Origin: a virus
DNA length: 43,124 bases
IMG/VR virus record: IMGVR_UViG_3300042691_042807
Coordinates: 1-43,124 of that record
Direction: 5' to 3' (one strand)
A program made the position numbers and the translations under genes. Below the pieces are notes generated by a model. It was not told the DNA's origin. It was given only the letters and a program-made list of their open reading frames with translations, and made no database searches. Every line of letters starts with the position of its first letter. Position 1 is the first letter of the stretch. Below, one piece after another: positions 7,344 through 43,124 of this stretch.

Positions 7344-7713
7344 TAATATAATAAAATCAGATCGTGGAGATTTATATGAAATTAACTTTGAAAATGCCCC
7401 ATTTCATGTTAATAGAATTTTTATTGTAGACAATGTTGCTATCGGAGAAAAACGTGGCGAACATGCTCATTATAGTGAAAAACAATTAGTAATATGTATC
7501 AAGGGAGAAATAGAAGCTAACTGGATAACTCCAGACAGTAGTGGATCTGTTGTACTTTCCCAAGGAGATGAATTATATTCTCACCCATTAACTTGGTTAA
7601 CACTTACTTTTATGAAAGAGAATTCATCTTTTGCATGCCTATGTTCTGATCATTTTAATGAAAATGATTATATAAGAGACTTTTCTAAATTTCAAGAAAT
7701 AATCAATCAATGA
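7336..7713 (+). CDS. FdtA/QdtA-type sugar 3,4-ketoisomerase (cupin)
   Basis: 125 residues, a single cupin. DRGDLYEINFENAPFHVNR and GEKRGEHAHYSEKQLVICIKG match the RGxHAHxxxxQ signature of dTDP-4-keto-6-deoxyglucose 3,4-ketoisomerases. It would supply the 3-keto substrate for the aminotransferase immediately upstream; the genes overlap by 8 bases. No glucose-1-phosphate thymidylyltransferase or 4,6-dehydratase is in the window, so the host or another part of the phage must make the precursor. Confidence 0.85.
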   Translation: MSNNIIKSDRGDLYEINFENAPFHVNRIFIVDNVAIGEKRGEHAHYSEKQLVICIKGEIEANWITPDSSGSVVLSQGDELYSHPLTWLTLTFMKENSSFACLCSDHFNENDYIRDFSKFQEIINQ

Positions 7714-9266: not shown

Positions 9267-10005
9267 TAAATATCTTTGTTCGTCTTTTTGTTCTTTTTAT
9301 AACGGTGAAATATTTATTAAAGAATATTTAAATGATATGATCAAACAAACACTTTTTGATCAAATTGAATTTATCTTTTTAGATTGCGCATCATCTGAAA
9401 ATATAAAAAAATATATTGAACCATTTATGAATAAATACGATAATATAAAATACCATCATCTGGAAAAAGATCCTGGATTGTATGCAGCATGGAATATAGC
9501 TATTAAATTTTGTTCTTCAGATATTATTGGTAACTGGAATATAGACGATAGAAAAAATACACATAGTTTTGAAATACTATTAAAAGAATTTAATCAAGAT
9601 CCAGAACTTGATCTTAGTTATGGTATTACATATGTATCATTAAAAGCTAATGAAAAATATGAAGAAAATAATTATAATCTTGTTTATCCATGTTTACAGC
9701 ATTCATTAGAAAATCTATTAAATAATAACTCTCCACATTGTATGCCTTTATGGAAAAAGAGTTTGCACGATAGATATGGTTTCTTTAATGAATCTTACAA
9801 ATCAGCGGCTGACGGAGAAATGTGGTTGCGTTGTGCTTTCCAGGGCGCTAAAATGAAAATGGTCAATCATCCAATTGGACTATATTACCACAATCCAAAT
9901 GGTCGATCAACAAATCCTGAAACTTTACAAGAAATGTTGCAAGAAGTTAGGATTAGTAGACAGCCATATATTCAGATACTACAAAAATTAAAGGAAAATA
10001 AATGA
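9259..10005 (+). CDS. GT2 glycosyltransferase (paralogue of upstream domain)
   Basis: 248 residues. It matches the first domain of the preceding protein nearly end to end: CSSFCSFYNGE, FIFLDCASSEN, LEKDPGLYAAWNIAI, GNWNIDDRKN, NSPHCMPLWKK, DGEMWLRCAF and NPNGRSTN all have direct counterparts. NIDD is the likely DxD-type motif. The pair looks like a tandem duplication followed by divergence of acceptor or donor use. The start overlaps the previous stop by 8 bases. Confidence 0.82.
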   Translation: MNNKYLCSSFCSFYNGEIFIKEYLNDMIKQTLFDQIEFIFLDCASSENIKKYIEPFMNKYDNIKYHHLEKDPGLYAAWNIAIKFCSSDIIGNWNIDDRKNTHSFEILLKEFNQDPELDLSYGITYVSLKANEKYEENNYNLVYPCLQHSLENLLNNNSPHCMPLWKKSLHDRYGFFNESYKSAADGEMWLRCAFQGAKMKMVNHPIGLYYHNPNGRSTNPETLQEMLQEVRISRQPYIQILQKLKENK

Positions 10006-15685: not shown

Positions 15686-16342
15686 ATGTTTTTACAATTA
15701 AGTGGTATTGGTAATCAGAAAATTACATACAAGGATCATTCTGATATTAAGTTTGAAAATCTCAATACGTATCTATTATTAGCTAAAAAAGCAATATCTA
15801 AATTTGCTAATAGTATATATAGTGGACTATCTACTAAAATGCTGAAAGATGAAGAAGCAATATCAAGTATAGCAAACGCTATAATGATGGCTGACTGGAG
15901 ATGGGACGATAATTACACTAACAGTAAGAATACAAAAAAAACCAAATATTCATATCGTAATCAATGTGCTATTTGGGCTATACAAACTTATGTTACAAAA
16001 AACTATAAACATCAAAATAAAACAAAAAGAAAAGTATATTCTTTAGATTTTGATATCAATAACGACGACTCTGCTTCAATTTATGAAATGGTAGAAAATT
16101 TTAGTTGCGATCCACCAGATTTGCAACTTATAGAAAAAGAAGAAAAAGAGAATTTATCAAATAATATTATGAATCTTTTATCTTCGGATCTATTAACAGA
16201 ACGTCAAAAGGAATATATCAAATTATATTATTTTGAAGATAAAACATTTGAACAAATAGGTAACCAATATGGTATTACTAGAGAAGCTGTTCGTCAAGGT
16301 TTAAACAAAGCAATAGAAACAATCAGACATCTATCAACATAA
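15686..16342 (+). CDS. sigma70-like RNA polymerase sigma factor
   Basis: 218 residues. The C-terminus (LTERQKEYIKLYYFEDKTFEQIGNQYGITREAVRQGLNKAIETIR) is a clear sigma region 4 helix-turn-helix that would contact a -35-type element. The middle (IANAIMMADWRWDD, YSYRNQCAIWAIQTYV) resembles region 2/3. AAAGGAAAAAT precedes the ATG. The 63-base gap before it holds a small hairpin (15622-15638) and an AT-rich stretch containing TATAAT. It probably redirects host RNA polymerase to phage middle or late genes. Confidence 0.85.
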   Translation: MFLQLSGIGNQKITYKDHSDIKFENLNTYLLLAKKAISKFANSIYSGLSTKMLKDEEAISSIANAIMMADWRWDDNYTNSKNTKKTKYSYRNQCAIWAIQTYVTKNYKHQNKTKRKVYSLDFDINNDDSASIYEMVENFSCDPPDLQLIEKEEKENLSNNIMNLLSSDLLTERQKEYIKLYYFEDKTFEQIGNQYGITREAVRQGLNKAIETIRHLST

Positions 16343-25189: not shown

Positions 25190-25356
25190 TAAACACTATA
25201 GTTGAACTTTGTTTTTATCTTTCTGTGATTAAATATTATTATGTTTATTTTTTTGATAACATAGAAATTAATCAACAGTATTTACAATTTCAATTTTATA
25301 ACTCTACAATACTAGGGATATTCACAATATTGAATTATAAAAGGTATCAAAAATGA
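25186..25356 (+). CDS. 56-residue hydrophobic protein
   Basis: ATG 25186 overlaps the deaminase stop (ATGA), and its own stop overlaps the nrdB start. ELCFYLSVIKYYYVYFF and STILGIFTILNY are aromatic-rich hydrophobic stretches, probably one or two membrane helices. The upstream in-frame codon at 25159 would overlap the deaminase more. Unknown function; coupling on both sides supports translation. Confidence 0.5.
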   Translation: MINTIVELCFYLSVIKYYYVYFFDNIEINQQYLQFQFYNSTILGIFTILNYKRYQK

Positions 25357-26327
25357 TTTTTAATGAACAAATAACTAGAAAACCTGATCACTATCCTTGG
25401 ACACAAGAATTTATAGAAGCTATGCATAATGGCTTTTGGACACATAGAGAATTTAATTTCCAAAGCGATATACAAGATTTTAAAGTAAATTTAAATGATC
25501 AAGAACAAGAAATTATAGTTCGTGCATTATCTACTATTGGTCAATTAGAAATATCTGTTAAAAAGTTTTGGGCTAAATTAGGAGATAATCTTCCTCATCC
25601 ATCGTTGAACGATATGGGCTATGTAATGGCTAATGTTGAAGTTGTTCACGGAGATGCTTATGAGAGACTATTAGAAGTACTAGGAATTGATGATAATTTT
25701 GAAAAAATATTACAACTAGATATTATTAATGGTCGAGTGAACTATCTAAGAAAACACTTACACAAGTTTCACTCTGATAACAAAAAACAGTTTGTATATT
25801 CTTTGATACTATTTACATTGTTTGTTGAAAATATAGCATTGTTTTCTCAATTTTATACTATCAGTTGGTTTGGTCGTTATAAAAATGTTTTAAAAGACAC
25901 AAACAAGCAAGTAGAATATACTTCAAGAGAAGAAAATTTACATGCTATGATTGGTATGAAAATTATTAATGTTATTCGTGAAGAATATCCAGAACTTTTT
26001 GATGAAGAACTAGAGAATAAAATACTTCATGAGTCTAAGGAAGCAGTCAAGTATGAATGTGAAATAATAGAATGGATAGTAAATGGTTATGATGATGATC
26101 ATTTAAATACTCCACTATTAAAAGAATTTATAAAGAACAGAATGAATATATCATTACAAGAAATAGGATACGATCCAATTTTTGAGGTCGATACCGTATT
26201 GTTAAGAAAAACCTTCTGGTTTGAAGAACAGGTTCTTGGTAATAATATGTCGGACTTCTTTCACTCTAGACCTGTTGAATATCAAAAATCTGCTATGAGT
26301 TTTGCAGAAGAAGATTTATTTTCTTGA
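25353..26327 (+). CDS. nrdB: ribonucleotide reductase class I small subunit (R2)
   Basis: 324 residues. Di-iron ligands by alignment with E. coli R2: Glu66 (GQLEISV, replacing Asp84), Glu96 and His99 (NVEVVH), Glu159 (FVENIALF), Glu194 and His197 (EENLH). Tyr103 lies four residues after His99, the position of the radical Tyr122. It makes the tyrosyl radical that R1 uses to reduce NDPs. It precedes nrdA, 20 bases away. Confidence 0.93.
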   Translation: MIFNEQITRKPDHYPWTQEFIEAMHNGFWTHREFNFQSDIQDFKVNLNDQEQEIIVRALSTIGQLEISVKKFWAKLGDNLPHPSLNDMGYVMANVEVVHGDAYERLLEVLGIDDNFEKILQLDIINGRVNYLRKHLHKFHSDNKKQFVYSLILFTLFVENIALFSQFYTISWFGRYKNVLKDTNKQVEYTSREENLHAMIGMKIINVIREEYPELFDEELENKILHESKEAVKYECEIIEWIVNGYDDDHLNTPLLKEFIKNRMNISLQEIGYDPIFEVDTVLLRKTFWFEEQVLGNNMSDFFHSRPVEYQKSAMSFAEEDLFS

Positions 26328-26347
26328 TTTATCACTAAAGGATAATT

Positions 26348-28000
26348 ATGTCTCATAAAAAATATTATTGGCTCAATTCTCATAGTCGTTTATTCTTAGA
26401 AAGAGGATATTTAGCTGATGGGCTTAGTCCAGAAGAAAGAATCAGACAAATAGCAGATAGAGCAGAAGAACTACTAGGAATCCCAGGATTTGCTGATAAA
26501 TTTGAGGACTATGTTAGTAGAGGATTTTATTCATTATCTACTCCTGTATGGAATAACTTTGGTAATCAAAGAGGACTGCCAGTTAGTTGTTTTAATAGTC
26601 ATATTAGTGATACTATGCAAAGCATACTATATAAAGTTGCTGAAGTAGGAATGATGAGTAAATTGGGTGGTGGTACAAGCGGATATTTCGGTGATCTTAG
26701 ACCAAGAGGATCAAAGATAAGTGTTGGTGGAGAATCTAGTGGACCTATTCACTTTATGGAATTGTTTGATAAAGTAGCAGATGTTGTTAGTCAGGGTTCT
26801 GCTCGTAGAGGATCGTTTGCAGCATATATGCCAGTTGAACATCCAGATATTGAAGAGTTTTTACAAATTAGATCCGAAGGACACAGTATTCAGAATATGA
26901 GTATTGGCATAACAATCAGTGATTCTTGGATGAAGAGTATGGTAGATGGTGACAAAGAAAAACGAAAAATTTGGGCAAAGATTATTAAAAAACGTTTTGA
27001 AACTGGCTATCCATATTTAATGTTTGTAGACACTATTAACAATAATAGTCCAGAAGTCTATAAAGATAAAAATCTAAAGATCAATAGTTCTAATTTATGT
27101 TCAGAGATTACACTATCTTCAGATGAAAGTAATTCTTTTGTTTGTGTACTATCATCATTAAATCTGCTTCATTGGGATGAAATAATACAAACAGATGCTA
27201 TTGAAACTTTGATTTATTTTTTGGATGCAATAAATGAAGAATTTATAATCAAAACTGAAAATATTAAATTTATGGAAAGCGCATATAATTTTGCAAAAAA
27301 TCAAAGAGCGCTAGGAATGGGTGTTCTTGGATGGCATTCATATTTACAAAGTAAAATGATACCGTTTGAATCTCTAAAAGCTAAAACATTAAATAATACT
27401 ATATGGAAACAAATTAGAGAAAAATCCGATAAAGCAAGTATAGAGCTAGCTAATAAATTTGGAGAACCACCTTTATTAAAAGGATATGGTAGACGCAATG
27501 TTACTACACTAGCTATTGCCCCAACAACATCTAGTTCATTTATTCTTGGGCAAGTTAGTCCAAGCATAGAACCATTGAATAGCAATTATTTTGTTAAAAA
27601 TTTAGCAAAAGGTAAATTCACATATAAAAATCCATATCTCAAAGAACTTCTAAAAGGCTATGATAAAAATGATGATGAGACATGGAAGAGCATTTTAATA
27701 AGAGGAGGATCTGTTCAACATCTATCATTCTTATCCAAAGAAGAAAAAGATGTATTCAAAACATTTGGTGAAATTTCTCAAAAAGAAATTGTGATTCAAG
27801 CATCTCAAAGACAAAAATATATAGATCAATCACAATCGTTAAACCTAATGGTTGGTACAGACGTTTCTCCAAAAGAAGTTAGCACTCTACTAATAGAGGG
27901 CTGGGAAATGGGAATCAAAACATTTTACTATCAAAGATCAGGTAATCCTGCTCAGGAATTAGCTCGTAATATTTTAACTTGTTCATCATGTGAGGCTTAA
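26348..28000 (+). CDS. nrdA: ribonucleotide reductase class I large subunit (R1), short form
   Basis: 550 residues, well under the 760 of E. coli NrdA. Active-site residues are present: Cys81 (PVSCFNS), Asn249-Cys251-Glu253 (NLCSE), Cys266, the YY pair in FYYQRSG, and the C-terminal Cys545/Cys548 pair (LTCSSCEA). The N-terminal ATP-cone is absent, so dATP activity inhibition through that domain is expected to be lost. AAAGGATAA precedes the ATG. Confidence 0.93.
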   Translation: MSHKKYYWLNSHSRLFLERGYLADGLSPEERIRQIADRAEELLGIPGFADKFEDYVSRGFYSLSTPVWNNFGNQRGLPVSCFNSHISDTMQSILYKVAEVGMMSKLGGGTSGYFGDLRPRGSKISVGGESSGPIHFMELFDKVADVVSQGSARRGSFAAYMPVEHPDIEEFLQIRSEGHSIQNMSIGITISDSWMKSMVDGDKEKRKIWAKIIKKRFETGYPYLMFVDTINNNSPEVYKDKNLKINSSNLCSEITLSSDESNSFVCVLSSLNLLHWDEIIQTDAIETLIYFLDAINEEFIIKTENIKFMESAYNFAKNQRALGMGVLGWHSYLQSKMIPFESLKAKTLNNTIWKQIREKSDKASIELANKFGEPPLLKGYGRRNVTTLAIAPTTSSSFILGQVSPSIEPLNSNYFVKNLAKGKFTYKNPYLKELLKGYDKNDDETWKSILIRGGSVQHLSFLSKEEKDVFKTFGEISQKEIVIQASQRQKYIDQSQSLNLMVGTDVSPKEVSTLLIEGWEMGIKTFYYQRSGNPAQELARNILTCSSCEA

Positions 28001-28509: not shown

Positions 28510-29244
28510 TTGAAAAAAAATACCAGAAGTAAGAGTGGTAAAAAGAAAAAAGTAATAGATGCTACTAATAATATTCAAGTTCCAGCGATTAATAGAAATA
28601 GTCTTAAGCCAAGAACTCCAAATCAGATTGAATATATAAGAACAATATCTGAGAATGTTATTACGTTCTGTCATGGTGTTGCTGGTTCTGGAAAGACTCA
28701 TATCGCAATAGGTATGGCTCTAGAATATTTATTAGCCAATAAAATTAAAAAAATTATAATTACTAGACCAGTTGTTGAAAGTGGAGAAAAAATTGGATAT
28801 TTACCAGGAACAGCAGAAGAAAAATTACATCCTTATCTTCTGCCTATTCTTGATGAAATTAAATACTTCATATCTGTTGCAGAGTACTCAAGTTTAAAAA
28901 CGAACGACAGAATCGAAGTGGTGCCTCTTGGATTGATGAGAGGACGTAACTTTCATAATAGTTTTATAGTTGCGGACGAATGCCAAAATGCATCATACGA
29001 TCAATTAAAAATGCTATTGACAAGAATTGGAAATGGAAGTAAAATGATATTGACCGGTGACCATACTCAAAGTGATCTTAGTCGTAATTTACGCGGAGGA
29101 TTCTTCGATATAATCAACGCTCTTACGGGTACTGATGGAATCGGTTTTTCACAGTTAGAACACAAGGATATAGTTCGTAATCCTATTATACCAAAAATAC
29201 TTGTTCGTTTAGAAAATTTTGAAAATGAAAGCAGAAAACAGTAG
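28510..29244 (+). CDS. phoH: PhoH-like ATPase
   Basis: 244 residues. The start is TTG 28510, chosen because AAAGGAA (28498-28503) is well placed and no ATG precedes the conserved core. Walker A is GVAGSGKTHIAIGMA and Walker B SFIVADECQNASYDQLKML, followed by MILTGDHTQSDL, the PhoH/RNA-helicase-like core. A basic N-terminus (KKNTRSKSGKKKK) may bind RNA. PhoH proteins are common in phages; the proposed role is RNA or phosphate-stress metabolism, not settled. Confidence 0.92.
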   Translation: MKKNTRSKSGKKKKVIDATNNIQVPAINRNSLKPRTPNQIEYIRTISENVITFCHGVAGSGKTHIAIGMALEYLLANKIKKIIITRPVVESGEKIGYLPGTAEEKLHPYLLPILDEIKYFISVAEYSSLKTNDRIEVVPLGLMRGRNFHNSFIVADECQNASYDQLKMLLTRIGNGSKMILTGDHTQSDLSRNLRGGFFDIINALTGTDGIGFSQLEHKDIVRNPIIPKILVRLENFENESRKQ

Positions 29245-30910: not shown

Positions 30911-31337
30911 TAAAAAATATCCATCGAAATATTCGAATGGTAAACTAGTATCTGCTGCTCAATATATCACAGAGATAATATGTGAAAATAGAGCTAAGAT
31001 GCTTAAAAAAGATTTACATTATCGTTTTTGGGTAAGTAAAGAATGGGCTTCTTACTATCGTAATCAAATAGGAACCGCTAATAAACTCTTAGAAAAATAT
31101 AGTGATACCGCTATAATAAAAGCATTGAATAATTCAAAGGCTTCAAAAATTTATTCTTTGCGAGCACCACACTTGTTGCCTATCATAGAACACGAAGAAG
31201 AAATAGTACAATCCCAAAATAAAATATTCACAAAAGAAATTGAAAGATTAGAAAATCCAAAATTTCAATCTGTGAATATAGGTATCAAAAAAAATAATAT
31301 ATTGTCAAAATTAAAGGATATAGATAATGAGTCTTAA
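30903..31337 (+). CDS. hypothetical protein of the recombination block
   Basis: 144 residues, basic, helical. MANKKYPSKYSNGKLVSAAQYITEIICENRAK, then LHYRFWVSKEWASYYRNQI. These aromatic and basic residues suggest nucleic-acid binding. It overlaps the RecA-like gene by 11 bases. Family not named. Confidence 0.6.
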   Translation: MANKKYPSKYSNGKLVSAAQYITEIICENRAKMLKKDLHYRFWVSKEWASYYRNQIGTANKLLEKYSDTAIIKALNNSKASKIYSLRAPHLLPIIEHEEEIVQSQNKIFTKEIERLENPKFQSVNIGIKKNNILSKLKDIDNES

Positions 31338-32340
31338 AGACGATGTTGTGAAAAATTTCGGTGATGATATTATCCTAAGTGGTAATGCTATAGTTGATAA
31401 AAAAAATGTGATAATACCAATTAGTCCATCATTAGACATAGTACTAAATGGAGGAATACCAGAAGGTAGCTTCGTAGTATTAACAGGACAACCAAAGTGC
31501 GGTAAAACAACAACCTCATTGGATTTTGCCGCTACTGCACAAAAACCAGAATATAAAGGAGCATTAAAAGATACACGAGAAGTGTACTACCTTAACATTG
31601 AAGGTCGATTAAAGAAACGCGATCTTGAAGGAATACCAGGATTAAATCTTGACAAATTCCATGTAATTGGTAGTCAGCAAGGCAAAATTCTTCATGCTGA
31701 GGAATATCTACAAATTGGTGAAAAAATTATTAATGAAATCCCAGGAAGTGTTGTTATCATAGACTCATATTCTGCATTATGCACAGAAGCAGAAATAACG
31801 AGTGAAATGGATAAGATGCAAAGAGCAGATGGGGCTAAATTATTAGCAAAATTTTGTCGCAAGGTCGCTAATGTTATTCCTGTTAATAAAAATATAGTAA
31901 TTGGTATTACCCATCTTATGGGTAATCCTACCGGCTATGGTGCAGAATTCAAGGAGAAAAGTGGTCAGGCTATCGCTTATCAAACTGATATTAAACTAAG
32001 AGCTAAAACATTTAAACCTTGGACATTAAGTGCAGATAGTACTCAGATAGGACAAGAGATAGAATGGCAAGTAGTATGCTCTGCTTTAGGTCCACCAGGA
32101 GGTAATATCACAAGCTATATTAGATATGGCCAAGGGGTTGACAAATATATGGAAGCGATTACACTTGCTTCTGATATGGGTATCATACATAAAGGTGGTG
32201 CATGGTATACTTTGACTAGTTTGTCAGATAAACCAAAATTTCAAGGTGCTGAAAAAGTAAGACAGTATTTGTTAGAAAATGAACAAGCCTATAAAGATTT
32301 AGTATCAAGTATTAAAACAACAATGGGTCTTAAATGCTAG
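31327..32340 (+). CDS. recA: RecA-like recombinase
   Basis: 337 residues, matching RecA/UvsX in length. Walker A is TGQPKCGKTTTSLDF; Walker B is VVIIDSYSAL; GITHLMGNPTGYG marks the L1-type region. It would form filaments on single-stranded DNA for strand exchange and recombination-dependent replication. The next gene starts inside its stop. It could be called UvsX; the sequence alone does not decide. Confidence 0.88.
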   Translation: MSLKDDVVKNFGDDIILSGNAIVDKKNVIIPISPSLDIVLNGGIPEGSFVVLTGQPKCGKTTTSLDFAATAQKPEYKGALKDTREVYYLNIEGRLKKRDLEGIPGLNLDKFHVIGSQQGKILHAEEYLQIGEKIINEIPGSVVIIDSYSALCTEAEITSEMDKMQRADGAKLLAKFCRKVANVIPVNKNIVIGITHLMGNPTGYGAEFKEKSGQAIAYQTDIKLRAKTFKPWTLSADSTQIGQEIEWQVVCSALGPPGGNITSYIRYGQGVDKYMEAITLASDMGIIHKGGAWYTLTSLSDKPKFQGAEKVRQYLLENEQAYKDLVSSIKTTMGLKC

Positions 32341-33616: not shown

Positions 33617-35098
33617 ATGATATTATGTGATCCAGCAGCCGAGAGGGCTGTTTTAGCTGGTATTTGTTCATATGGTGAAGATGCCTATTTGGACATTATC
33701 GATATAGTTCAATCATCGACATTTACCATTGATAGTAATGGTATAATTTTTCAATGTTTAAAAAAAATCTGTGAAAGCGATAAAAAGCCCAAAATAGATT
33801 TGGCTTCAATATATTCTTCGGCACAAGAACTTGGATTTGCAAACATCTTATCCAAAAAAGAAGAAGCACAACATTTAAAAGCTGTTATAGATTTTCCAGT
33901 TAGTTTAGAAAATGTAAGAAAATTTGCAGCCAAAATACGCAAACTTGAAATAACAAGATTGCTTAGAAAACAATTAGAATCAGCACAAGATAAACTTTTA
34001 GATATTAATGGTAGTGAATCAATTTCTAGTATTCTGGGGATAGCAGAAGACACCATCTTTAATTTTTCTTCTTTATTAAATGATACTGATAATAATCCTG
34101 TTCATGTTGCAAAAGACATAGACTCTTACATCAAAAGTTTAGAAGAAAATAAAATTGATCAAATCGGCATACCCACCGGCTTTCCTGCTTATGATAGAGC
34201 GATAGGAGGAGGCTTTAGAAGAGGAACCGTTAATGTAATTGCTGCTAGACCTAAAACTGGTAAAACTTTATTAGCAGATAATATTGGATATTATATTGCA
34301 AATAAATTAAAAATTCCAGTTCTTAATATGGATACAGAAATGAGCACTCTTGATCATATTAATAGAATTCTAGCTATGAATACAGAGATTGAAATCAATT
34401 CAATTGAAACTGGAAAATTTGCAGAATCTCCAGATAAAAAGACAAAAATTATACAAGCATCAGAAACATTAAAAGAAACTCCTCTTTTCTATAAAAGTAT
34501 AGCGGGAAAACCATTCGAAGAACAACTAGCTATTATGAGAAGATGGATAGTTAAAGAAGTGGGTTTAAATGATGATGGTTCAGCAAAAGAATGCGTTATA
34601 ATATATGATTATCTAAAACTTATGGATAGTACCGGAATATCTCAGGATATGAAAGAGTATCAAGTTCTAGGCTTCATGATGACTAGTTTACATAATTTTG
34701 CCGTTAGATATCAGGTTCCAATATTATCATTTATTCAATTAAATAGAGATGGCATAACAAAAGAAAGTACAGATACTGCTTCCGGTTCAGATAGAATTAT
34801 ATGGTTATGTAGTAATTTCAGTATCTTTAAAAGAAAGAGCGATGAAGAAATAGCGGAAGATGGAATAGATAACGGTAATAGAAAATTATTACCATTAGTT
34901 AGTCGTCACGGTGGAGGATTAGACGATAATGATTATATCAATTGTCATATGAAAGGCTGGTGTGCCAAAATATCTGAAGGTAAGACAAGACTAGAATTAT
35001 TAAATAATACTAAAAATAAAGACGAAGGATTTATAATTGATGACAACTCAAACTTTAATGACGAAGATGAAGACGCACCGCAAATCCCATTTAAATAA
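33617..35098 (+). CDS. dnaB: DnaB-type replicative helicase
   Basis: 493 residues. N-terminal DnaB domain (PAAERAVLAGICSYGEDAY), linker, then RecA-like motor: TGFPAYDRAIGGGFRRGTV, Walker A AARPKTGKTLLAD, MDTEMS, IIYDYLKLMD (Walker B), FIQLNRDG. It would form a hexamer that unwinds the fork 5' to 3'. CAAGGAAT precedes the ATG. The primase gene begins inside its 3' end. Confidence 0.92.
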   Translation: MILCDPAAERAVLAGICSYGEDAYLDIIDIVQSSTFTIDSNGIIFQCLKKICESDKKPKIDLASIYSSAQELGFANILSKKEEAQHLKAVIDFPVSLENVRKFAAKIRKLEITRLLRKQLESAQDKLLDINGSESISSILGIAEDTIFNFSSLLNDTDNNPVHVAKDIDSYIKSLEENKIDQIGIPTGFPAYDRAIGGGFRRGTVNVIAARPKTGKTLLADNIGYYIANKLKIPVLNMDTEMSTLDHINRILAMNTEIEINSIETGKFAESPDKKTKIIQASETLKETPLFYKSIAGKPFEEQLAIMRRWIVKEVGLNDDGSAKECVIIYDYLKLMDSTGISQDMKEYQVLGFMMTSLHNFAVRYQVPILSFIQLNRDGITKESTDTASGSDRIIWLCSNFSIFKRKSDEEIAEDGIDNGNRKLLPLVSRHGGGLDDNDYINCHMKGWCAKISEGKTRLELLNNTKNKDEGFIIDDNSNFNDEDEDAPQIPFK

Positions 35099-36224
35099 TC
35101 AAGATAAATTAAAACTTGTTTGTGATGATTTATGCGATCATATTGATGAACTTTTAGATTTTCTAGATCTAAAGTATAGTATGAACAATAAAATGGTCTC
35201 AATGTGCTGTCCGATACACGATGGAGACAACCCATCTGCTATAAATATATATTATACTGGTGACTATTATAGAGGAAACTGGAAATGCAGAACTCATGGT
35301 TGCGATAAAATTTTTAAAGGATCGATAATAGGATTTGTTAGAGGCGTTATATCAAGTCAAAAATATGGATGGGTGAAAGACGGTGATCAAGGATGCTCGT
35401 TTGAAGAGGCTGTAGAATTTTGTCTAAATTTTTTGAAAAAAGATTTTAAAGACATAAAGGTATCAAAAACCGATAAAGAAAAAAAGCAATTTGCATCTAT
35501 CATAGAAAATATATTTGATGATCGAAAAATAGAAAATAATAAAGTGTTGCCATCAAGAGATGCTGTTCGCAAGTCTCTTATTATGCCATGCGATTATTTT
35601 GTTAACAGAGGCTTTAACAAAGATATATTAGATAAATATGATGTAGGTCTATGTAACAAACAAGATAAAGAAATGTTTAATAGGGCGGTAGCACCAATCT
35701 ATAATGATGATGCTACAAAAATGGTTGGATGTACTGCTCGTAGCATATTTGAAAAATGTGATCATTGTAAACATTTTCACGACCCTGTTTTAGAATGCCC
35801 AGATAAAGAAGATCTATGGAAATATTCAAAATGGAAACATAGTAATAATTTTAAGATAAATCATTATCTATATAATTTTTGGTATGCTAAAGAACATATA
35901 GCAAAATCTCATACGGCCATACTGGTTGAGAGTCCTGGAAATGTTTGGAAATTAGAAGAAAATGGTATACATAATAGTTTAGCTATATTTGGATCTTCAT
36001 TGAGCGATAGACAAAAAATCTTATTGGATTCTTCTGGAGCAATGGCTATAGTTATTATAACAGATAACGATGAGGCAGGAGACAGTGCTGCCAAACAAAT
36101 AGAATCAAAATGTAAAAATACCTATAGAATATTTCATTTTAAAATTTCTAAAAACGATGTTGCCGATATGACATCAGAAGAGATTCAAGCTGAAATTAAA
36201 AATAAATTAGAAAGAATAGTATGA
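35040..36224 (+). CDS. dnaG: DnaG-type primase
   Basis: 394 residues. ATG 35040 is chosen because AAGGA at 35025-35029 is well spaced; ATGs at 35058 and 35067 are alternatives. It has a CHC2-like zinc finger (MCCPIHDGDNP, KCRTHGCDKIF), and a TOPRIM domain with AILVESPGNVWKL and IITDNDEAGDSAAK (DxDxxGD). It makes RNA primers at the fork. It is shorter than bacterial DnaG and lacks an obvious helicase-binding domain. Confidence 0.86.
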   Translation: MTTQTLMTKMKTHRKSHLNNQDKLKLVCDDLCDHIDELLDFLDLKYSMNNKMVSMCCPIHDGDNPSAINIYYTGDYYRGNWKCRTHGCDKIFKGSIIGFVRGVISSQKYGWVKDGDQGCSFEEAVEFCLNFLKKDFKDIKVSKTDKEKKQFASIIENIFDDRKIENNKVLPSRDAVRKSLIMPCDYFVNRGFNKDILDKYDVGLCNKQDKEMFNRAVAPIYNDDATKMVGCTARSIFEKCDHCKHFHDPVLECPDKEDLWKYSKWKHSNNFKINHYLYNFWYAKEHIAKSHTAILVESPGNVWKLEENGIHNSLAIFGSSLSDRQKILLDSSGAMAIVIITDNDEAGDSAAKQIESKCKNTYRIFHFKISKNDVADMTSEEIQAEIKNKLERIV

Positions 36225-36811
36225 CTAAAATTATAGCATTTTCTGGTCGTAAACAATCTGGAAAAACTTCTAGTGGAGATTATTTACAATCATTATTAGA
36301 TCATGCTGGCTTATCACAAAAATATAAATTATATAGTTTCGCTGATCCTTTAAAAAACGATATTTGTATGAATATTTTAGGACTAACATATGAACAATGT
36401 AATGGTACCGATGTAGATAAAAATACTCTAACAGATATATTTTGGCAAGGAGAGCAATTAACTGCCAGAAGAGTGATGGAGGTTGTTGGTACTGATATAT
36501 TTAGATCACTTAAAAATGATGTTTGGGTAAGCTCTACAGTTAGAAAAATTCAACAAGAAAATTGTGATATTGCTATTATTTTAGATGTAAGATTTCCAAA
36601 TGAAGTAGAAGCTATAAAATCTATCGGTGGACACGTTCTAAGGCTAACGCTAGATCCATTTCATTCTGAATCATCTAGCGAAAGCGCATTGGATCAAAAA
36701 ATATATGATTGGAATAATTTTGATGCTATTATAAATAATATAAATATGTCAATTGAAGATAAAAATATTGCTATTAAAGATTTTTGTAAACATAAAAACA
36801 TTATACCATAG
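36221..36811 (+). CDS. deoxynucleoside monophosphate kinase
   Basis: 196 residues. P-loop FSGRKQSGKTSSGDYL, YSFADPLKNDICMNILGL, RRVMEVVGTDIFR, and ILDVRFPNEVEAIKSIGG match the T4 gp1-type dNMP kinase family. It would phosphorylate dNMPs to dNDPs, complementing dCMP deaminase, RNR and dUTPase. ATGA overlap with the primase gene. Confidence 0.85.
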   Translation: MTKIIAFSGRKQSGKTSSGDYLQSLLDHAGLSQKYKLYSFADPLKNDICMNILGLTYEQCNGTDVDKNTLTDIFWQGEQLTARRVMEVVGTDIFRSLKNDVWVSSTVRKIQQENCDIAIILDVRFPNEVEAIKSIGGHVLRLTLDPFHSESSSESALDQKIYDWNNFDAIINNINMSIEDKNIAIKDFCKHKNIIP

Positions 36812-36824
36812 AAATAAAAATAAT

Positions 36825-37865
36825 ATGATAATAACTTATTTAAGAAGTTCTAGTTATGGCACTCATTCTATGTGTGAGCAGCAATATTTTATAGAATATG
36901 TTCTTGGATTAAAAAGTCCATCAAATAAAAAAGCAGACAAAGGCACAATATGTCATAAGATATTAGAAATTTTAGCAGATATTAAGCTAGCTATTCAAAG
37001 CGATAAAACAATAATTAATGATGATATTGTTGGTAAATTAGATATTAATAATTATGATCTAAATAAAATTTCAGAACAAGTATATAAATATTATACTTCT
37101 CAATTTACTCACCATAAATGGGAATCTAAAGATCAAAAAGATTGTATTAATTGGGTTAATAAAGCTTTAACTTATAATAATGGTATGTTTGATCCTCGCA
37201 ATAGAGAAATAGTACAATCTGAACAAAGATTTGATATTGAAATTAAAAAAGAATGGTCAAAATATGAATACGATTTGAATGGTGAGATAATCAAAGGTAA
37301 TCTTGCTATAAAAGGAACTATCGATTTAATAACTAAGGTTAATGATTCTACTTTAGAAATAATTGACTGGAAAACTGGTCGTAGATTAGATTGGGCCACT
37401 GGAGAAGAAAAAACTCATGAAAAATTACAGAATGATCCACAGTTAAGAATGTATCATTATGCTGTTAGTCATATCTATCCTCAATATGATCATATAATGG
37501 TAAGTATTAATTTTATTAATGATGGTGGAGTATTCTCTATATGTTATGATAAAAGCGATTTACCAAAAACCGAAATGATGTTGTGTAAAAAATTCGAAAC
37601 AATCAAAAAGAGTAATCGTCCTATTTTAAGTAAATCATGGAAATGCAATAAACTTTGTCATTTTGGTAAAACTACTTTCCAAGATTCTCACGTTCTTCCT
37701 ATATTAGAGTATAGAGAAAATCAATTAGTACCACAAGGTAATTTTATGACCAAGTGCGAACAAATAAAGCATGATATCGATCTCAAAGGTATAAAAAGCG
37801 TTGTTGACGAATACACAACTCCGGGCTATACTGTAGGACACTACAAGTCTCCGGGAAGCACCTAA
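36825..37865 (+). CDS. Cas4/RecB-like PD-(D/E)xK nuclease
   Basis: 346 residues from ATG 36825; the earlier in-frame codon at 36753 overlaps the kinase and is not supported. Motifs: GTICHKILEILA (His), IKGTIDLIT (Asp), LEIIDWKTGRRL (ExxDxK core), QLRMYHYAV (QxxxY). Cysteines near the N-terminus (SMCEQQYF) and C-terminus (KCNKLCHFG) fit a Cas4/AddB-type iron-sulfur cluster. Probably a 5' or 3' exonuclease for recombination; this is not a CRISPR locus. Confidence 0.85.
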   Translation: MIITYLRSSSYGTHSMCEQQYFIEYVLGLKSPSNKKADKGTICHKILEILADIKLAIQSDKTIINDDIVGKLDINNYDLNKISEQVYKYYTSQFTHHKWESKDQKDCINWVNKALTYNNGMFDPRNREIVQSEQRFDIEIKKEWSKYEYDLNGEIIKGNLAIKGTIDLITKVNDSTLEIIDWKTGRRLDWATGEEKTHEKLQNDPQLRMYHYAVSHIYPQYDHIMVSINFINDGGVFSICYDKSDLPKTEMMLCKKFETIKKSNRPILSKSWKCNKLCHFGKTTFQDSHVLPILEYRENQLVPQGNFMTKCEQIKHDIDLKGIKSVVDEYTTPGYTVGHYKSPGST

Positions 37866-37870
37866 AATTT

Positions 37871-39745
37871 ATGAATTATTCAGTACTACATTGTCATTCT
37901 ATGCATTCTTTATTGGACGGGTTAAGTAAACCAAGTTCTATAGCAGATAGGTGCGTAGAAATTGGTGTTAAAGCATGCGCATTAACTGATCATGGAAATA
38001 TTTCAGGCGCTGTTAAATTTTATTCGGCTATGAAAAAAGCAGGAGTAAAACCTATCTTAGGATGCGAATTATATATTTGTGATCAAGATGCATCAATTAA
38101 GGACGCATCCAATAAAAAACTAAGCCATTTTTTAGTATTGGCCAAAAATCTTCAAGGATGGAAAAGTCTGGTCCGTTTAGTTTCAGAGAGCAACAACCCT
38201 GATCTTTTTTATTTCAAGCCACGCCTCAATCTGGAGCGCCTAGAGAAGTATTGTCGAGGTAATCTGATAGGAGTCTGTGGTCATCTTGGGTCATACTTGG
38301 CCGATAAGATTTTGGATGATAAAAATGAACTAATTCCAGATTATCTTACCGTTGGTATTGAAGCAGTTAAAAAATTGCATTCTATATTTGGACCAGAAAA
38401 TGTATTCTTGGAATCACAACTTATTGATCAAGAAAATCTTCCTTGTCAGGTTATTTTAACAAATGCTATTAGAGAAATTGGTAAAAAGACAAATACCAAA
38501 ATTATAGCAACTCCAGATGCTCATTATGCTAGGCGTAGTGATGCTGTTGATCAAAGAATTTTATTATGTACTAATCTCAAAACCACATTACCAGAAATTA
38601 GTAGAAAAATCAGCAATAATGAAGATGTTCCAATGGGATGTTTTTTCTTGTCAGATAACTATCATATTCCATCTTATGATGAATTGATAGAGCTGCACCC
38701 TGCTGAAGAATTAGAGAATACTAATTTGGTAGCCTCTATGATTGAAGACTATAATATTTTAAGTAAACCAAGGCTACCGCCATTTTCTTGTCCAAAAGGC
38801 TACGATCCTGATACATACTTAAGACAACTATGTAGAAATGGTTGGAAACAAAAAATAGCTAATATAGTACCAAAACATGATCATCAACAATATACTGATC
38901 GTATCAAATACGAATTAGAAGTTTTACAAGGTGCGGGATTATCTAGTTATTTCTTGATTGTACAAGATGTTGTTGATTATGTTCGTAAACAAAATTGGCT
39001 TCCCGGTCCTGGAAGAGGAAGTGCTGCTGGATGTTTGGTATCTTATTTGATAGGTATAACAAGCATTGATCCAATAAAATACGGATTAATTTTTGATAGA
39101 TTCTATAATGCTGGTAGAAATACAGCTGATCATATTTCTATGCCAGATATTGATGTTGACGTTCCTATTAATAAAAGAGAATATGTAATTGAATATATTA
39201 AAAATAAATACGGGGCAGATAAAGTCTCTCAAATGGTTACATTCAATACGATGAAGGGAAGAGGCGCTCTCAAAGATGTTTTAAGAGCATATGGAAATAT
39301 TACATTTGATGAAATGAATAAAATAACTAAAAATATTCCTGATGAAGCTAAAATTGCTGATGAACTACAAGAAATGAAAGAAGAAACCGGGGAAGCATCT
39401 ATTATTAGATGGGCATTAGAAAATAAGAGCGATGACTTAAGAGAATGGTGCTATATAGATGATAATAATGAATTACAAGGACCACTTGCAAAACGTTTCG
39501 AACAAGCTATTAGATTAGAAGGCACAAAAACAAACCAATCTAAACATGCTGCTGGTATTGCGATCAGTAGTATGCCATTGGGAGAATGTTGCCCCATGGT
39601 TTACGATACAAAAAATGATAAACCTATTGCAGGAATGGAAATGCAAGATCTAGAAAGTATCGGAATTATTAAGTTTGATATACTCGGCGTAGCAATGTTA
39701 GACAAAATTATGTTTATTGAAGATTTACTTTTACAAGGAGCTTAA
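37871..39745 (+). CDS. dnaE: DNA polymerase III alpha, N-terminal half (PHP, palm, thumb)
   Basis: 624 residues. The PHP domain is at about 1-230 (LHCHSMHSLLDG, TDHG, GCELY, ATPDAHYA), with most metal ligands apparently kept. The palm contains GPGRGSAAGCLVSYL and PDIDVD (first two catalytic aspartates), and the protein ends shortly after IKFDILGVAML, which supplies the third. The reading frame stops where the fingers would begin. It must act with the second half at 40611. No intein motifs are visible at either edge. Confidence 0.92.
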   Translation: MNYSVLHCHSMHSLLDGLSKPSSIADRCVEIGVKACALTDHGNISGAVKFYSAMKKAGVKPILGCELYICDQDASIKDASNKKLSHFLVLAKNLQGWKSLVRLVSESNNPDLFYFKPRLNLERLEKYCRGNLIGVCGHLGSYLADKILDDKNELIPDYLTVGIEAVKKLHSIFGPENVFLESQLIDQENLPCQVILTNAIREIGKKTNTKIIATPDAHYARRSDAVDQRILLCTNLKTTLPEISRKISNNEDVPMGCFFLSDNYHIPSYDELIELHPAEELENTNLVASMIEDYNILSKPRLPPFSCPKGYDPDTYLRQLCRNGWKQKIANIVPKHDHQQYTDRIKYELEVLQGAGLSSYFLIVQDVVDYVRKQNWLPGPGRGSAAGCLVSYLIGITSIDPIKYGLIFDRFYNAGRNTADHISMPDIDVDVPINKREYVIEYIKNKYGADKVSQMVTFNTMKGRGALKDVLRAYGNITFDEMNKITKNIPDEAKIADELQEMKEETGEASIIRWALENKSDDLREWCYIDDNNELQGPLAKRFEQAIRLEGTKTNQSKHAAGIAISSMPLGECCPMVYDTKNDKPIAGMEMQDLESIGIIKFDILGVAMLDKIMFIEDLLLQGA

Positions 39746-39746
39746 A

Positions 39747-39929
39747 ATGGCAACGGTAGAATTCAAAGACTTGGCAGAAGGAGCAGAGTTTATTTACAAT
39801 AGTATACAGTATAAAAAAATTCCTGTTATCAAAGTAAGTTGTTGTACATCCTTGAATGCAGAGAATATTACTGATTCTAATAAAAAAATTATGATTAGAC
39901 CACTAGAAAAGGTTGAAGTTAATGAATAA
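39747..39929 (+). CDS. 60-residue small phage protein in the polymerase gap
   Basis: ATG 39747, six bases after AAGGAG (39735-39740). FKDLAEGAEFIYNSIQYKKI, VSCCTSLNAEN, and MIRPLEKVEV form a small beta protein known in character from phages but without a function. It sits between the two polymerase halves and overlaps the exonuclease gene. Confidence 0.65.
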   Translation: MATVEFKDLAEGAEFIYNSIQYKKIPVIKVSCCTSLNAENITDSNKKIMIRPLEKVEVNE

Positions 39930-40611
39930 TAACAAAATTTGCGTTTTTGATTTCGAGACAGATGGATCAAATCCAGATTTCTGTAGTCCTGTACAAATAG
40001 CTGCTGTAATGATAGATCCGGTTAGTTTAGAAATTATTGATGGTTCAGAATTTAATGTAAACTTTAAACCAGAAGTGATAGAACAGAATGAAAATTATGA
40101 ATATACAACTGATATCTTAGATTTTCATGCTAAAGTTAGAGGATGTTCAAAAGCCGATATTCTAAAACAGTGGCAACAATATCCTAAACAAGAATATAGT
40201 TGGCAATTATTTATTAATTATTTACAGAATTATCATACTAGAAGTAGTCGCAAAAGTCAATTTAGCGCCCCTATTGCCGCTGGATATAATATACATAGAT
40301 TTGATCTTCGTATTATAGAAAGACTTAGCTCAAAATATAATAATCTAAATAAAGAAAATCGATCAGATATCTTTTATCCTCGTGATACATTAGATATAAT
40401 GGGACTAATGTTTTATTGGTTTGAAGCAAGTAATGAACTCAATAGTTATTCTTTAGATACTGTGAGAGAATACTTTGGTATTAGTGGAGAGGGTGCTCAT
40501 GATGCACTAAAAGACGTTAAAGATTGTGCGGAAATATTAACGAGATTTATGAAACTACATCGTAATCTTTCATCGAAAGTAAAATTTAAAAATTCATTTT
40601 TGGGAAAATAA
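39922..40611 (+). CDS. DEDD-type 3'-5' exonuclease (DnaQ-like)
   Basis: 229 residues from ATG 39922; AAAAGG lies at 39907-39912. ICVFDFETDGSNP (DxE, Exo I), AAGYNIHRFDLRI (Exo II Asp), and GAHDALKDVKDCAEIL (Exo III, HxxxxD, DEDDh type). Likely the proofreading subunit for the split polymerase, given its place between its halves and the one-base overlap with the second half. Confidence 0.88.
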   Translation: MNNNKICVFDFETDGSNPDFCSPVQIAAVMIDPVSLEIIDGSEFNVNFKPEVIEQNENYEYTTDILDFHAKVRGCSKADILKQWQQYPKQEYSWQLFINYLQNYHTRSSRKSQFSAPIAAGYNIHRFDLRIIERLSSKYNNLNKENRSDIFYPRDTLDIMGLMFYWFEASNELNSYSLDTVREYFGISGEGAHDALKDVKDCAEILTRFMKLHRNLSSKVKFKNSFLGK

Positions 40612-42221
40612 TGTCTAAAAATTTACAATTTAATTGTGGATGTTCTTTTAAAATCAATGATAATAGTATCGAATTTAATCCTAATATTGAAACTATTAAT
40701 TTAGATTGTCAAAAAACTTGGGATTTAATTAGCGATGGTAATACTAAGGGATGTTTTCAATTAGAAAGCAGACTTGGTAGGTCGTATGCTAAAAAACTTA
40801 AACCAGAAAATGTAGAACAGCTTTCTGCATTAATAGCAATTATTAGACCAGGATGCTTGGAGTCTTTTAAAGACGGTAAGAGTATTACCCAGCATTATAT
40901 AGATATTAAAAATGGACAAGAGTCTATTGATTATCTACATCCATCATTAGAGCCAATATTAAAGACAACATATTCTCAAATGATTTATCAAGAGCAGGCG
41001 ATGCAAATAGCAAAAGATATCGCGGGATTTAGTTTGCAAGATGCTGATTCTTTAAGAAAAGCTATCGGTAAAAAACTTCCAGAAGAAATGGCAAAAATTA
41101 AAACAAAATTTTTAGAAGGATGCAAACAAAGTAAAGTTGTTGACGAAGCAACTGCCGAACAAATATTCGGCTGGATTGAAAAAAGTCAAAGATATAGCTT
41201 TAATAAATCCCATTCTGTATCATATGCGATGAATGCTTATTTATCAGCATATGCTAAGGCCCATTTTCCGAAAATCTTCTTCTCCTCTTATTTGTCTTTT
41301 GCTAAAGATAAAGTAGATCCACAAGATGAAATTAAGGAATTAATCCAAAATGCAAATGAGATGGATGTTGATGTAAGAACGCCAGATCTTAGAAATCTAA
41401 ATAGATTTTTTCTATTAAAAAATGATAAGATTTATTTTGGACTAACAGATATAAAAGGTGTTGGTCAATCAGTTTTTGATAAAATAGTTTCAATTGTTAA
41501 AGAGTCCCATATTCATCTAGATACTGCCTGCTGGTATAAAATACTATTTAAATTATTGGTTAATATTAATTCTACAGCAGCAAAAGCATTAATACAAAGT
41601 GGTGCCTTGGACTATCTTAGTAAACCAAGACAAACAATGCTCTATGAATTTAATACTGTCAGCAATCTTACAAAGAAAGAAATAGAACACGCTCTTAATT
41701 ATACCGTAGAAAATACTAGCCTAATAATTATTCTAAATAAATTAATAGGAAATAGTAAGATTAATAAAAAACGTAAAGAAAATCTTGAAAATTTGATTTA
41801 TAATCTTCAACATCCTCCTCATTCGTTGAGTGATCAAGCTGAATGGATATCTGATTGTGAATATACTTTATTAGGATATTCTATATCTTGTAGTAAGGTT
41901 GATCTTTATGATATAAGTATGACAAATACTTCTTGCCGTGACTTTAAAAATGGTATTAATAATCAAAAATTAATTATGGGTGGAGAAATAACTGGTTGTA
42001 ATGTTACCCAAACCAAAACTGGTAAAACAAAAGGATCAGATATGGCTTTTGTAACATTACAAGACAATACTGGTGCTGTAGACTCAGTAATATTTTTTCC
42101 AGAAACATATAAAAAATATCGTAATATTTTATTTGCAGGACATGTTATTATAGTGCAGGGAGCACGATCAAAAACTGGAGACTCGTTCATTGTTGAAAAA
42201 GCTTATGTGGCAAGATCTTGA
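40611..42221 (+). CDS. dnaE: DNA polymerase III alpha, C-terminal half (fingers, HhH, OB)
   Basis: 536 residues. After a novel 35-residue leader it enters DnaE sequence at WDLISDGNTKGCFQLES, continues with AIIRPGCLES, MIYQEQAMQIAKDIAGF, RKAIGKK, FNKSHSVSYA, then a helix-hairpin-helix (FGLTDIKGVGQSVFDKI) and a C-terminal OB fold (GGEITGCNVTQTKTGK, VFLP-type VIFFPETYKKY). Together with the first half, the length (1,160) matches full DnaE. The stop overlaps the next promoter. Confidence 0.92.
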   Translation: MSKNLQFNCGCSFKINDNSIEFNPNIETINLDCQKTWDLISDGNTKGCFQLESRLGRSYAKKLKPENVEQLSALIAIIRPGCLESFKDGKSITQHYIDIKNGQESIDYLHPSLEPILKTTYSQMIYQEQAMQIAKDIAGFSLQDADSLRKAIGKKLPEEMAKIKTKFLEGCKQSKVVDEATAEQIFGWIEKSQRYSFNKSHSVSYAMNAYLSAYAKAHFPKIFFSSYLSFAKDKVDPQDEIKELIQNANEMDVDVRTPDLRNLNRFFLLKNDKIYFGLTDIKGVGQSVFDKIVSIVKESHIHLDTACWYKILFKLLVNINSTAAKALIQSGALDYLSKPRQTMLYEFNTVSNLTKKEIEHALNYTVENTSLIIILNKLIGNSKINKKRKENLENLIYNLQHPPHSLSDQAEWISDCEYTLLGYSISCSKVDLYDISMTNTSCRDFKNGINNQKLIMGGEITGCNVTQTKTGKTKGSDMAFVTLQDNTGAVDSVIFFPETYKKYRNILFAGHVIIVQGARSKTGDSFIVEKAYVARS

Positions 42222-42245
42222 CAACTCACTCCACCATGATATAAT
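42218..42245 (+). promoter_or_regulatory. sigma70-type promoter for ssb
   Basis: TTGACA (42218-42223) overlaps the TGA of the polymerase gene; TATAAT (42240-42245) follows a 16-base spacer. Both boxes are perfect. Transcription would begin near 42252, leaving a 40-base leader with AGGAG (42283-42287) before the ssb ATG. Confidence 0.8.
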
Positions 42246-42295
42246 ACGTTACAAAGTGTTTGGTTTTGGTTTTAACTTTTTTAGGAGATAATTAT

Positions 42296-42679
42296 ATGAA
42301 TTTAGTTATTTTAAAGGGTAATTTGGCTAGAGATCCTGAATTAAGGATGGTTGGTGGCGAAAAGCAAACAGCCGTTGTTAATTTTTCCATTGCTGTTAAT
42401 CGTGAATTTATACGAGCAAATGGAACTCTAGATAAGATTACAAGTTTCATTTCTTGTGAAGCCTGGGATAGCGGAGCAGAAGCGATTGCAAAGGCTTTAA
42501 AGAAGGGTGATCTAGTTCTAGTTGAAGGATCACTAAGAAATGATAGCTGGGAAAAGGATGGAGTAAAGCATAGTACTATTAAGGTTAGGGTAAATAATTT
42601 TGCTCCATTAGCAAAAGCTCGCAGCAAATCAGCGTCAAGCGAAAGCGATGCTGATGTAGAAGAAACAGTATCGTTCTAA
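42296..42679 (+). CDS. ssb: single-stranded DNA-binding protein
   Basis: 127 residues from ATG 42296, eight bases after AGGAG; the in-frame codon at 42260 lies in the leader and encodes non-conserved residues. OB fold: NLVILKGNLARDPELR, FSIAVNREF, FISCEAWDSGAEAI, LKKGDLVLVEGSLRNDSW, STIKVRVNNF. The tail ends in the acidic DADVEETVSF, a variant of the DDIPF-type tip that recruits partners. Has its own promoter and terminator. Confidence 0.93.
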   Translation: MNLVILKGNLARDPELRMVGGEKQTAVVNFSIAVNREFIRANGTLDKITSFISCEAWDSGAEAIAKALKKGDLVLVEGSLRNDSWEKDGVKHSTIKVRVNNFAPLAKARSKSASSESDADVEETVSF

Positions 42680-42680
42680 T

Positions 42681-42694
42681 TAATCAATTGATTA
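42681..42694. repeat. 14-bp perfect palindrome after ssb
   Basis: TAATCAATTGATTA reads the same on both strands and begins two bases after the ssb stop. It could be a protein-binding site or part of the termination region. Confidence 0.4.
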
Positions 42695-42708
42695 TTATTC
42701 TAGCAGTT

Positions 42709-42736
42709 AGGACATATCCATTGGTATGTCCTTTCT
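42709..42736 (+). terminator. rho-independent-like terminator of ssb
   Basis: AGGACATATC (42709-42718) pairs with GGTATGTCCT (42723-42732) around a CATT loop, 10 bp with one G-T pair, followed by TTCT. A short T tail makes it moderate in strength. Confidence 0.7.
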
Positions 42737-42763
42737 GTTATGAATATCAAAATAGGAATACTT

Positions 42764-43124
42764 ATGAAGAAAAGAATATTTATTTGTAATGAAGCTAGTT
42801 TTATAGCAAGTGGTTATGGTATACACGGTAAAGAACTTTTAACTAGACTTCATAATAGTGATAAATATGAGGTTGCAGAATTAGGCTGCTATTCAACAGT
42901 AAATGATCCTAGGATTCAAAATATACCATGGAAATTTTATCCTAATCTTCCTAAGCCTGATGATACTGAAAAGCTAAACGAATATAAAAGCAATGGAAAT
43001 AACCAATTCGGTCTTTGGAGATTTAATAAAGCTATAATAGATTTCAAGCCGCACATTGTTTTCGATGTTAGAGATTACTGGATGTATGCTTATCAAGAGA
43101 CTAGTCCTTTACGAAAATATTTTA
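42764..43124 (+). CDS. GT4-like glycosyltransferase (partial, right edge)
   Basis: ATG 42764 begins MKKRIFICNEASFIASGYGI, then GKELLTRLHNSDKYEVAEL and HIVFDVRDYWMYAYQE, the N-terminal lobe of group-1 transferases (compare the GGTGYGIT opening at 12017). The frame is open through the window end (120 codons). TAGGAA precedes the start. The catalytic lobe lies beyond the window. Confidence 0.75.
   Translation, partial: MKKRIFICNEASFIASGYGIHGKELLTRLHNSDKYEVAELGCYSTVNDPRIQNIPWKFYPNLPKPDDTEKLNEYKSNGNNQFGLWRFNKAIIDFKPHIVFDVRDYWMYAYQETSPLRKYF

Follow-up and report, generated by a model that had tools for sequence, protein, structure and literature searches.

The stretch of DNA analysed here, referred to below as the window, is the IMG/VR virus record IMGVR_UViG_3300042691_042807, a metagenomic fragment of 43,124 bases that encodes the alpha subunit of DNA polymerase III (DnaE, the family C polymerase) in two genes, dnaE-N and dnaE-C, with two further genes between them (Table 1). 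An earlier note, made from the letters of this DNA, had described the intervening genes as a 60-residue protein (here orf60) and a DnaQ-like exonuclease, and both the open reading frames (ORFs) and Pfam confirm this description. The same arrangement recurs in a clade of phages, in which it would give a replicative polymerase of two polypeptides with a proofreading exonuclease encoded in the middle.

Table 1. Features of the window (dNMP, deoxynucleoside monophosphate; SSB, single-strand binding protein)
Feature	Position	Strand	Description
dnaE-N	37871-39745	+	624 residues; PHP, palm and thumb of DNA polymerase III alpha
orf60	39747-39929	+	60 residues; small conserved protein of unknown function that carries an S-C-C motif
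exonuclease	39922-40611	+	DnaQ-like 3'-5' exonuclease of DEDDh type, putative subunit for proofreading; 229 residues from ATG
dnaE-C	40611-42221	+	536 residues; fingers, helix-hairpin-helix and OB fold of DNA polymerase III alpha
N-terminal beta-hairpin of dnaE-C, C-G-C-x-F (residues 1-22)	40611-40676	+	found so far only in the clade
SSB gene, directly downstream	42296-42679	+	Pfam SSB 4e-25
upstream replication genes	33617-37865	+	DnaB helicase, Toprim primase, dNMP kinase, PD-(D/E)XK nuclease

The two polymerase genes and the genes between them

DnaE-N gives Pfam matches to PHP (9e-36) and PF07733 (1.5e-72), its residues 6-614 align to residues 9-566 of E. coli alpha in a PDB sequence search, and its AlphaFold2 model (predicted local distance difference test score, pLDDT, 89.7) has 2hpi as the top PDB match (TMq 0.78). 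DnaE-C matches PF17657 (5e-47), HHH_6 (5e-9) and OB (1e-5, which is under the curated cut-off, yet the structure covers this domain); its residues 25-519 align to residues 585-1054 of E. coli alpha, and its AlphaFold2 model (pLDDT 88.6) superposes on residues 572-1074 of 5fku_A. The catalytic aspartates D426 and D428 (in PDIDVD) and D603 (in KFDILG) of DnaE-N occur in every one of 176 distinct homologues, and the fingers motif FNxSH is invariant in all 149 homologues of DnaE-C. Pfam, the PDB alignments and these motifs agree with the earlier note in placing PHP, palm and thumb with the three catalytic aspartates in the first gene, as do Pfam, the alignment and the predicted structure in placing fingers, helix-hairpin-helix (HhH) and OB in the second. 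Its claim that the two together match a full DnaE stands in part: all six domains of the C-family set (PHP, palm, thumb, fingers, HhH, OB) are present in order over the two proteins, and the very C-terminal end of E. coli alpha has no matched counterpart in either window half.

The sequence and structure alignments of both halves place the break at the palm/fingers junction, between approximately residues 566 and 585 of E. coli alpha, so that only the extreme C-terminal part of alpha is lost. The motif FNKSHS (residues 197-202) lies intact within dnaE-C, as the note had also observed, and the site at which cyanobacterial DnaE is split presumably corresponds to a point near this motif, away from the break in the window.

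The exonuclease, for which a TTG at 39913 is an alternative start that would give 232 residues, matches Pfam PF00929 (2e-7) and phrog_192, the DNA polymerase exonuclease subunit (5e-22); NCBIfam gives it weak matches, none of which reaches the cut-off. Its DEDDh set (D10, E12, D128, H193 and D198) is present in 172 of 172 distinct homologues. A homologue of orf60 was found by tblastn in 109 of 135 junctions, and F15, C32 and C33 are invariant in the 30 rows aligned; the window orf60 itself has no Pfam or PHROG family at 0.1 and no PDB relative, while ten of 30 homologues give a weak match to phrog_2183 (function unknown). The four genes are tightly packed in the window, dnaE-N and orf60 being 1 nucleotide (nt) apart, orf60 and the exonuclease overlapping by 8 nt, and the exonuclease and dnaE-C sharing TAATG. 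Across 147 junctions the exonuclease stop lies within 15 nt of the dnaE-C start in 136 and overlaps it in 104. Such close packing suggests that the genes are translationally coupled and their products supplied in balance. An insertion is seen in one relative (L037, 8071-10662), where an 863-residue ORF with RCC1-type repeats, as judged by eye, stands between orf60 and the exonuclease.

Conservation of the locus in a phage clade

The set of relatives comprises loci from three IMG/VR scans led by the window DnaE-N, DnaE-C and exonuclease, from one scan with an alignment of DnaE-N, the window itself, and five loci from a scan with an alignment led by Rossellomorea phage phiT1 (described below). 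The DnaE-C-led scan kept the best 80 of 236 relatives and the DnaE-N alignment scan the best 80 of 581; the exonuclease-led scan is blind to loci without an exonuclease, which the DnaE-N- and DnaE-C-led scans are able to find. From 289 sequences, 24 without DnaE-N or DnaE-C and 93 exact junction duplicates were dropped, leaving 172 distinct loci. DnaE is split in all 172 and fused in none, and the exonuclease lies between the halves in all 172; in the first locus set, likewise, 0 of 135 were fused. The gene order that the earlier note had singled out for a search thus holds in all distinct IMG/VR loci of the clade; in INPHARED, tblastn with the exonuclease gave no match at 1e-5. Because near-identical contigs are counted separately among the 172, we also give cluster counts: both halves are complete in 138 loci, which fall into 119 clusters at 95% identity and 79 at 80%.

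An assembly join, a frameshift or a gene in decay could also account for a broken polymerase gene in a metagenomic fragment such as the window, and an assembly join was the outcome of which the earlier note had warned. With the layout conserved in 172 distinct loci, chance or an assembly join is excluded, and the catalytic residues are intact and the genes under purifying selection, so that we give this explanation almost no weight. The median ratio of nonsynonymous to synonymous substitution rates (dN/dS) is 0.08 for DnaE-N, 0.11 for DnaE-C and 0.08 for the exonuclease, calculated from 349, 375 and 256 of 784 pairs, respectively, since dS was missing or outside 0.05-2.5 in the rest; one DnaE-N pair has a dN/dS of 1.47.

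The lowest pairwise identity within the clade is 44% for DnaE-N, 37% for DnaE-C and 32% for the exonuclease, and the three proteins have pairwise distances that correlate with one another at 0.94-0.95 (0.945 for DnaE-N with DnaE-C), a result that linkage alone could yield. In a quick tree of 53 DnaE sequences the 19 clade rows form one group with a Shimodaira-Hasegawa-like approximate likelihood ratio (SH-aLRT) support of 100 and a stem of 1.04 changes per column. The clade appears to be a deep and large group of uncultured aquatic phages that is not rare in IMG/VR, and given this depth and abundance (79 clusters at 80% among the 138 loci) its arrangement may be a common mode of phage DNA copying in water. 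A search for the T4-like capsid family PF07068 gave no match anywhere, its controls included, and is therefore uninformative.

Inteins and other broken DnaE genes

A missed intron or a trans-splicing intein could unite the halves in a single chain at the RNA or protein level, and the mechanism does exist in the clade, where split inteins break these genes at other sites. In four members (L057, 2050-5126; L063; L153; L198) dnaE-N is broken again at PGPGRG/SAAG in what reads as a split intein, as judged from a profile for L057 only and by eye from the ORFs for the other three. Three of the four have a free-standing ORF between the halves of this intein. L153 has a second split intein, which breaks dnaE-C at FNK/S (6696-9644) and encloses a LAGLIDADG ORF (7631-8587) between its halves; DnaE is thus in three genes in L057, L063 and L198 and in four in L153. 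In two more members, L036 (8736-10997) and L041, an entire intein of about 700 bases lies in frame within dnaE-C, at RPG/CLEA; that of L036 matches PF14890 (5.5e-9).

The palm/fingers break has none of these signs. The intein N-terminal model TIGR01445 (NCBIfam), which as a positive control fires on L057 (1.5e-8) and on dnaE-C of L153 (1.7e-7), is silent on both window halves, and Rfam gives no match in the window from 36000 to 43124. The DnaE-N tails past KFDILG are 16-27 residues long (172 of 176 scored, 4 missed), too short for intein halves when the intein N-halves elsewhere have about 90 residues, and the H-N-[CST] motif of intein C-ends occurs in 0 of 149 DnaE-C heads, which extend 17-59 residues ahead of FQLES. 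An intron or intein at this break was rejected on these grounds, in accord with the earlier note, which had seen no intein there; we regard a later joining of the halves into one chain as highly improbable. As far as the sequences indicate, the palm/fingers break is of another kind than the intein breaks of the clade, and splicing is very probably absent from it. Inserts of a further sort are found in L121 (3353-5133), where a LAGLIDADG ORF interrupts dnaE-N just ahead of ISMPDIDVD, and in L125, where the insert is similar; no intein or Rfam intron was recognised in either.

For comparison with fused genes, the best 80 of 586 bacterial DnaE loci are all fused (80 of 80). The phiT1-led IMG/VR scan gave 79 loci (not counting L290, a clade member already in the set), with DnaE fused in 72, split in six and without a C part in one; the six are five clade members and the IMG/VR contig 2868238732 (L302). 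A scan led by DnaE-N of phiT1 alone found no relative. In phiT1 (L209, 3489-6771) the genes are gp20, the 49-residue gp19 and gp18, and DnaE is again divided where palm and fingers meet; L302 (4986-8260) has the same break, with halves that overlap by 4 nt. Both differ from the window in having no exonuclease between the halves and no C-G-C hairpin, and their identity to the window halves is 29-36%. DnaE is broken near the PHP/polymerase border or within the N part in the phages Karate, ChewyVIII, Jayan and vB_BpsS-140 (L206, L207, L208 and L210), and together with the breaks in phiT1 and L302 this indicates that phage DnaE broke at domain borders more than once. The 14 INPHARED records were chosen partly for looking broken and hence give no rate of breakage. 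In another phage, Bacillus phage KLEB27-3 (L211, 3926-8296), an HNH endonuclease gene interrupts DnaE inside the fingers.

The quick tree needs three changes between the split and fused states. A grouping of L302 with the clade was rejected by the approximately unbiased (AU) test (p 0.011), a grouping of phiT1 with the clade was not (AU p 0.37), and one of phiT1 with L302 was borderline (p 0.07). The tree suggests that the palm/fingers break arose at least twice, with three times not sure, and the long branches weaken these tests.

A candidate two-subunit replicase and its setting

Twelve large clade contigs (77-244 kb, which may be incomplete) contain one palm and one fingers domain each, and neither a family A nor a family B polymerase was found in any of the 12; the split DnaE is therefore the likely replicase of these phages. 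In DnaE structures the fingers contact the incoming nucleotide and the template, and with the metal-binding aspartates in DnaE-N and the fingers in DnaE-C neither half should polymerise alone. Since the halves are complementary and no second polymerase of family A, B or C was found in the 12 contigs, an obligate heterodimer is the natural reading. DnaE-N and DnaE-C would dock non-covalently along the palm/fingers interface, as these domains meet in a one-chain DnaE, and the enzyme would be active only as the heterodimer. We consider it very likely that the cassette specifies a two-subunit C-family replicase assembled through this interface and equipped with its own proofreader. The wider proposal, which we favour on balance, is that a deep aquatic phage clade has altered its replicase into an obligate alpha heterodimer, divided at the palm/fingers hinge, whose cassette also encodes a DEDDh proofreader dedicated to it and, for the majority of members, the S-C-C protein, so that the core would have three or four proteins and the fingers would be a separable, non-covalent subunit.

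The two proteins might instead act separately, or the pair might be an accessory polymerase while the host replicase copies the genome; PHP domains can be active by themselves, and the 12 contigs yielded no PF02768 clamp gene. We judge this quite improbable, as the palm and fingers motifs are both retained under purifying selection, genes for helicase, primase and SSB surround the pair, and no other polymerase of family A, B or C was found in the contigs.

The new N-terminus of DnaE-C carries a C-G-C hairpin, with strands at residues 3-6 and 12-16 of the AlphaFold2 model, whose C9, C11 and F13 are present in 137 of 149 distinct homologues, the other 12 having a gap. C-x-C-x-F was found in 0 of 71 fused DnaE that could be scored by pattern, from 173 loci. 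The hairpin may have been acquired together with the new N-terminus and may act as a clasp, standing in for the lost covalent link.

The exonuclease is probably the proofreader of the split polymerase. Bacterial epsilon sits on the PHP side of alpha, and by analogy the phage exonuclease would supply proofreading while bound, probably, to the PHP side of DnaE-N. A mere neighbour in the cassette, not a polymerase subunit, could also show what ties it to the polymerase, namely gene order, family and correlated distances, along with NCBIfam matches that stay under cut-off; this is unlikely, in our estimate, because the gene lies between the halves in every distinct clade locus and because, among 93 phage loci beyond the main set (14 from INPHARED and 79 from IMG/VR), the clade exonuclease profile matched near DnaE in only five, all of them clade members.

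Several observations weigh against the two-subunit replicase with its own proofreader. No beta clamp was found in the 12 contigs with PF02768, the sole clamp family tried, and no canonical clamp motif was seen in dnaE-C, by eye only, which leaves processivity unexplained. The PHP ligands are mostly, not always, kept (H7 and H9 each in 151 of 176 homologues, gaps being scored as not kept). The 12 DnaE-C homologues that lack the hairpin mean that it is not needed everywhere, and orf60 is absent from some members (L039, L046). The gap between the exonuclease and dnaE-C exceeds 100 nt in eight of 147 junctions and reaches several kilobases in some, so that tight spacing is not strictly required. 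The tie of the exonuclease to the polymerase, finally, is one of gene order and family.

Particular members illustrate two of these variations. The clade members L196 and L193 have substitutions at PHP ligands such as H41, for which reason their PHP site may be inactive. In L248 (8830-12700), and also in L092, L280 and L090, several kilobases with other ORFs separate the exonuclease from dnaE-C.

In T4-like phages the exonuclease is a domain of the family B polymerase itself. The polymerase of the T4-like Aeromonas phage 25 is split, and its parts 43A and 43B co-purify and polymerise, a precedent for the docking proposed here (PMC2988022); like the window, this is a phage replicative polymerase spread over two genes, but of family B, and the gap holds a seg homing endonuclease (phage 25) or untranslated sequence (44RR) and no exonuclease gene (PMC2988022). 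The other closest known system is that of group 2.2 jumbo phages, in which a family C polymerase comes from two phage genes whose products are expected to rebuild a single enzyme, but that polymerase has only the core catalytic and template-binding parts, its two genes lie far from each other and the phages have a family B polymerase as well (PMC7824862), whereas the window keeps PHP, thumb, HhH and OB in one cassette with the exonuclease and no family B polymerase was found in the 12 clade contigs. The OM43 phages MEP401 and MEP402 are marine phages with a polymerase in two ORFs and a small unknown ORF between them, an arrangement found in most of their relatives; unlike in the window, the polymerase is of family A and the exonuclease domain is in the first half, and the authors considered an intron (PMC10580990).

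Cyanobacterial DnaE also comes from two genes, which differ from those of the window in having intein halves at the break; this DnaE is rejoined by a split intein according to a survey covering about 2000 bacterial genomes, which mentions intein splits and frameshift fragments (PMC3919608). A phage family B polymerase split with an intein is known as well (PMC6892783). Bacterial DnaE with its DnaQ (epsilon) resembles the window proteins in domains, catalytic residues and a separate DEDDh exonuclease, and differs in that alpha is one chain.

Split replicative polymerases are thus already known, and the locus draws its interest from the enzyme family, the break site, the depth of the clade and the presence of an exonuclease gene within the gap; neither a two-gene DnaE with an exonuclease between the halves nor the clade itself is described in the literature searched, which comprised open-licence papers only. 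The locus is a clear example of a gene that was divided at a hinge between domains and has stayed divided, alongside the breaks that inteins make in these genes. Should the fingers of a C-family replicase be separable, the catalytic cycle, in which the fingers close on the palm, could be studied by mixing the parts, and split family C polymerases would be a natural model and a tool.

Elsewhere in the window, PHROG matches mark a ribonucleotide reductase pair (25353-28000), a PhoH-like gene (28510-29244), a UvsX-like recombinase (31327-32340) and a sigma-factor-like gene (15686-16342), and glycosyltransferase-, methyltransferase- and aminotransferase-like genes are scattered between 2314 and 13132.

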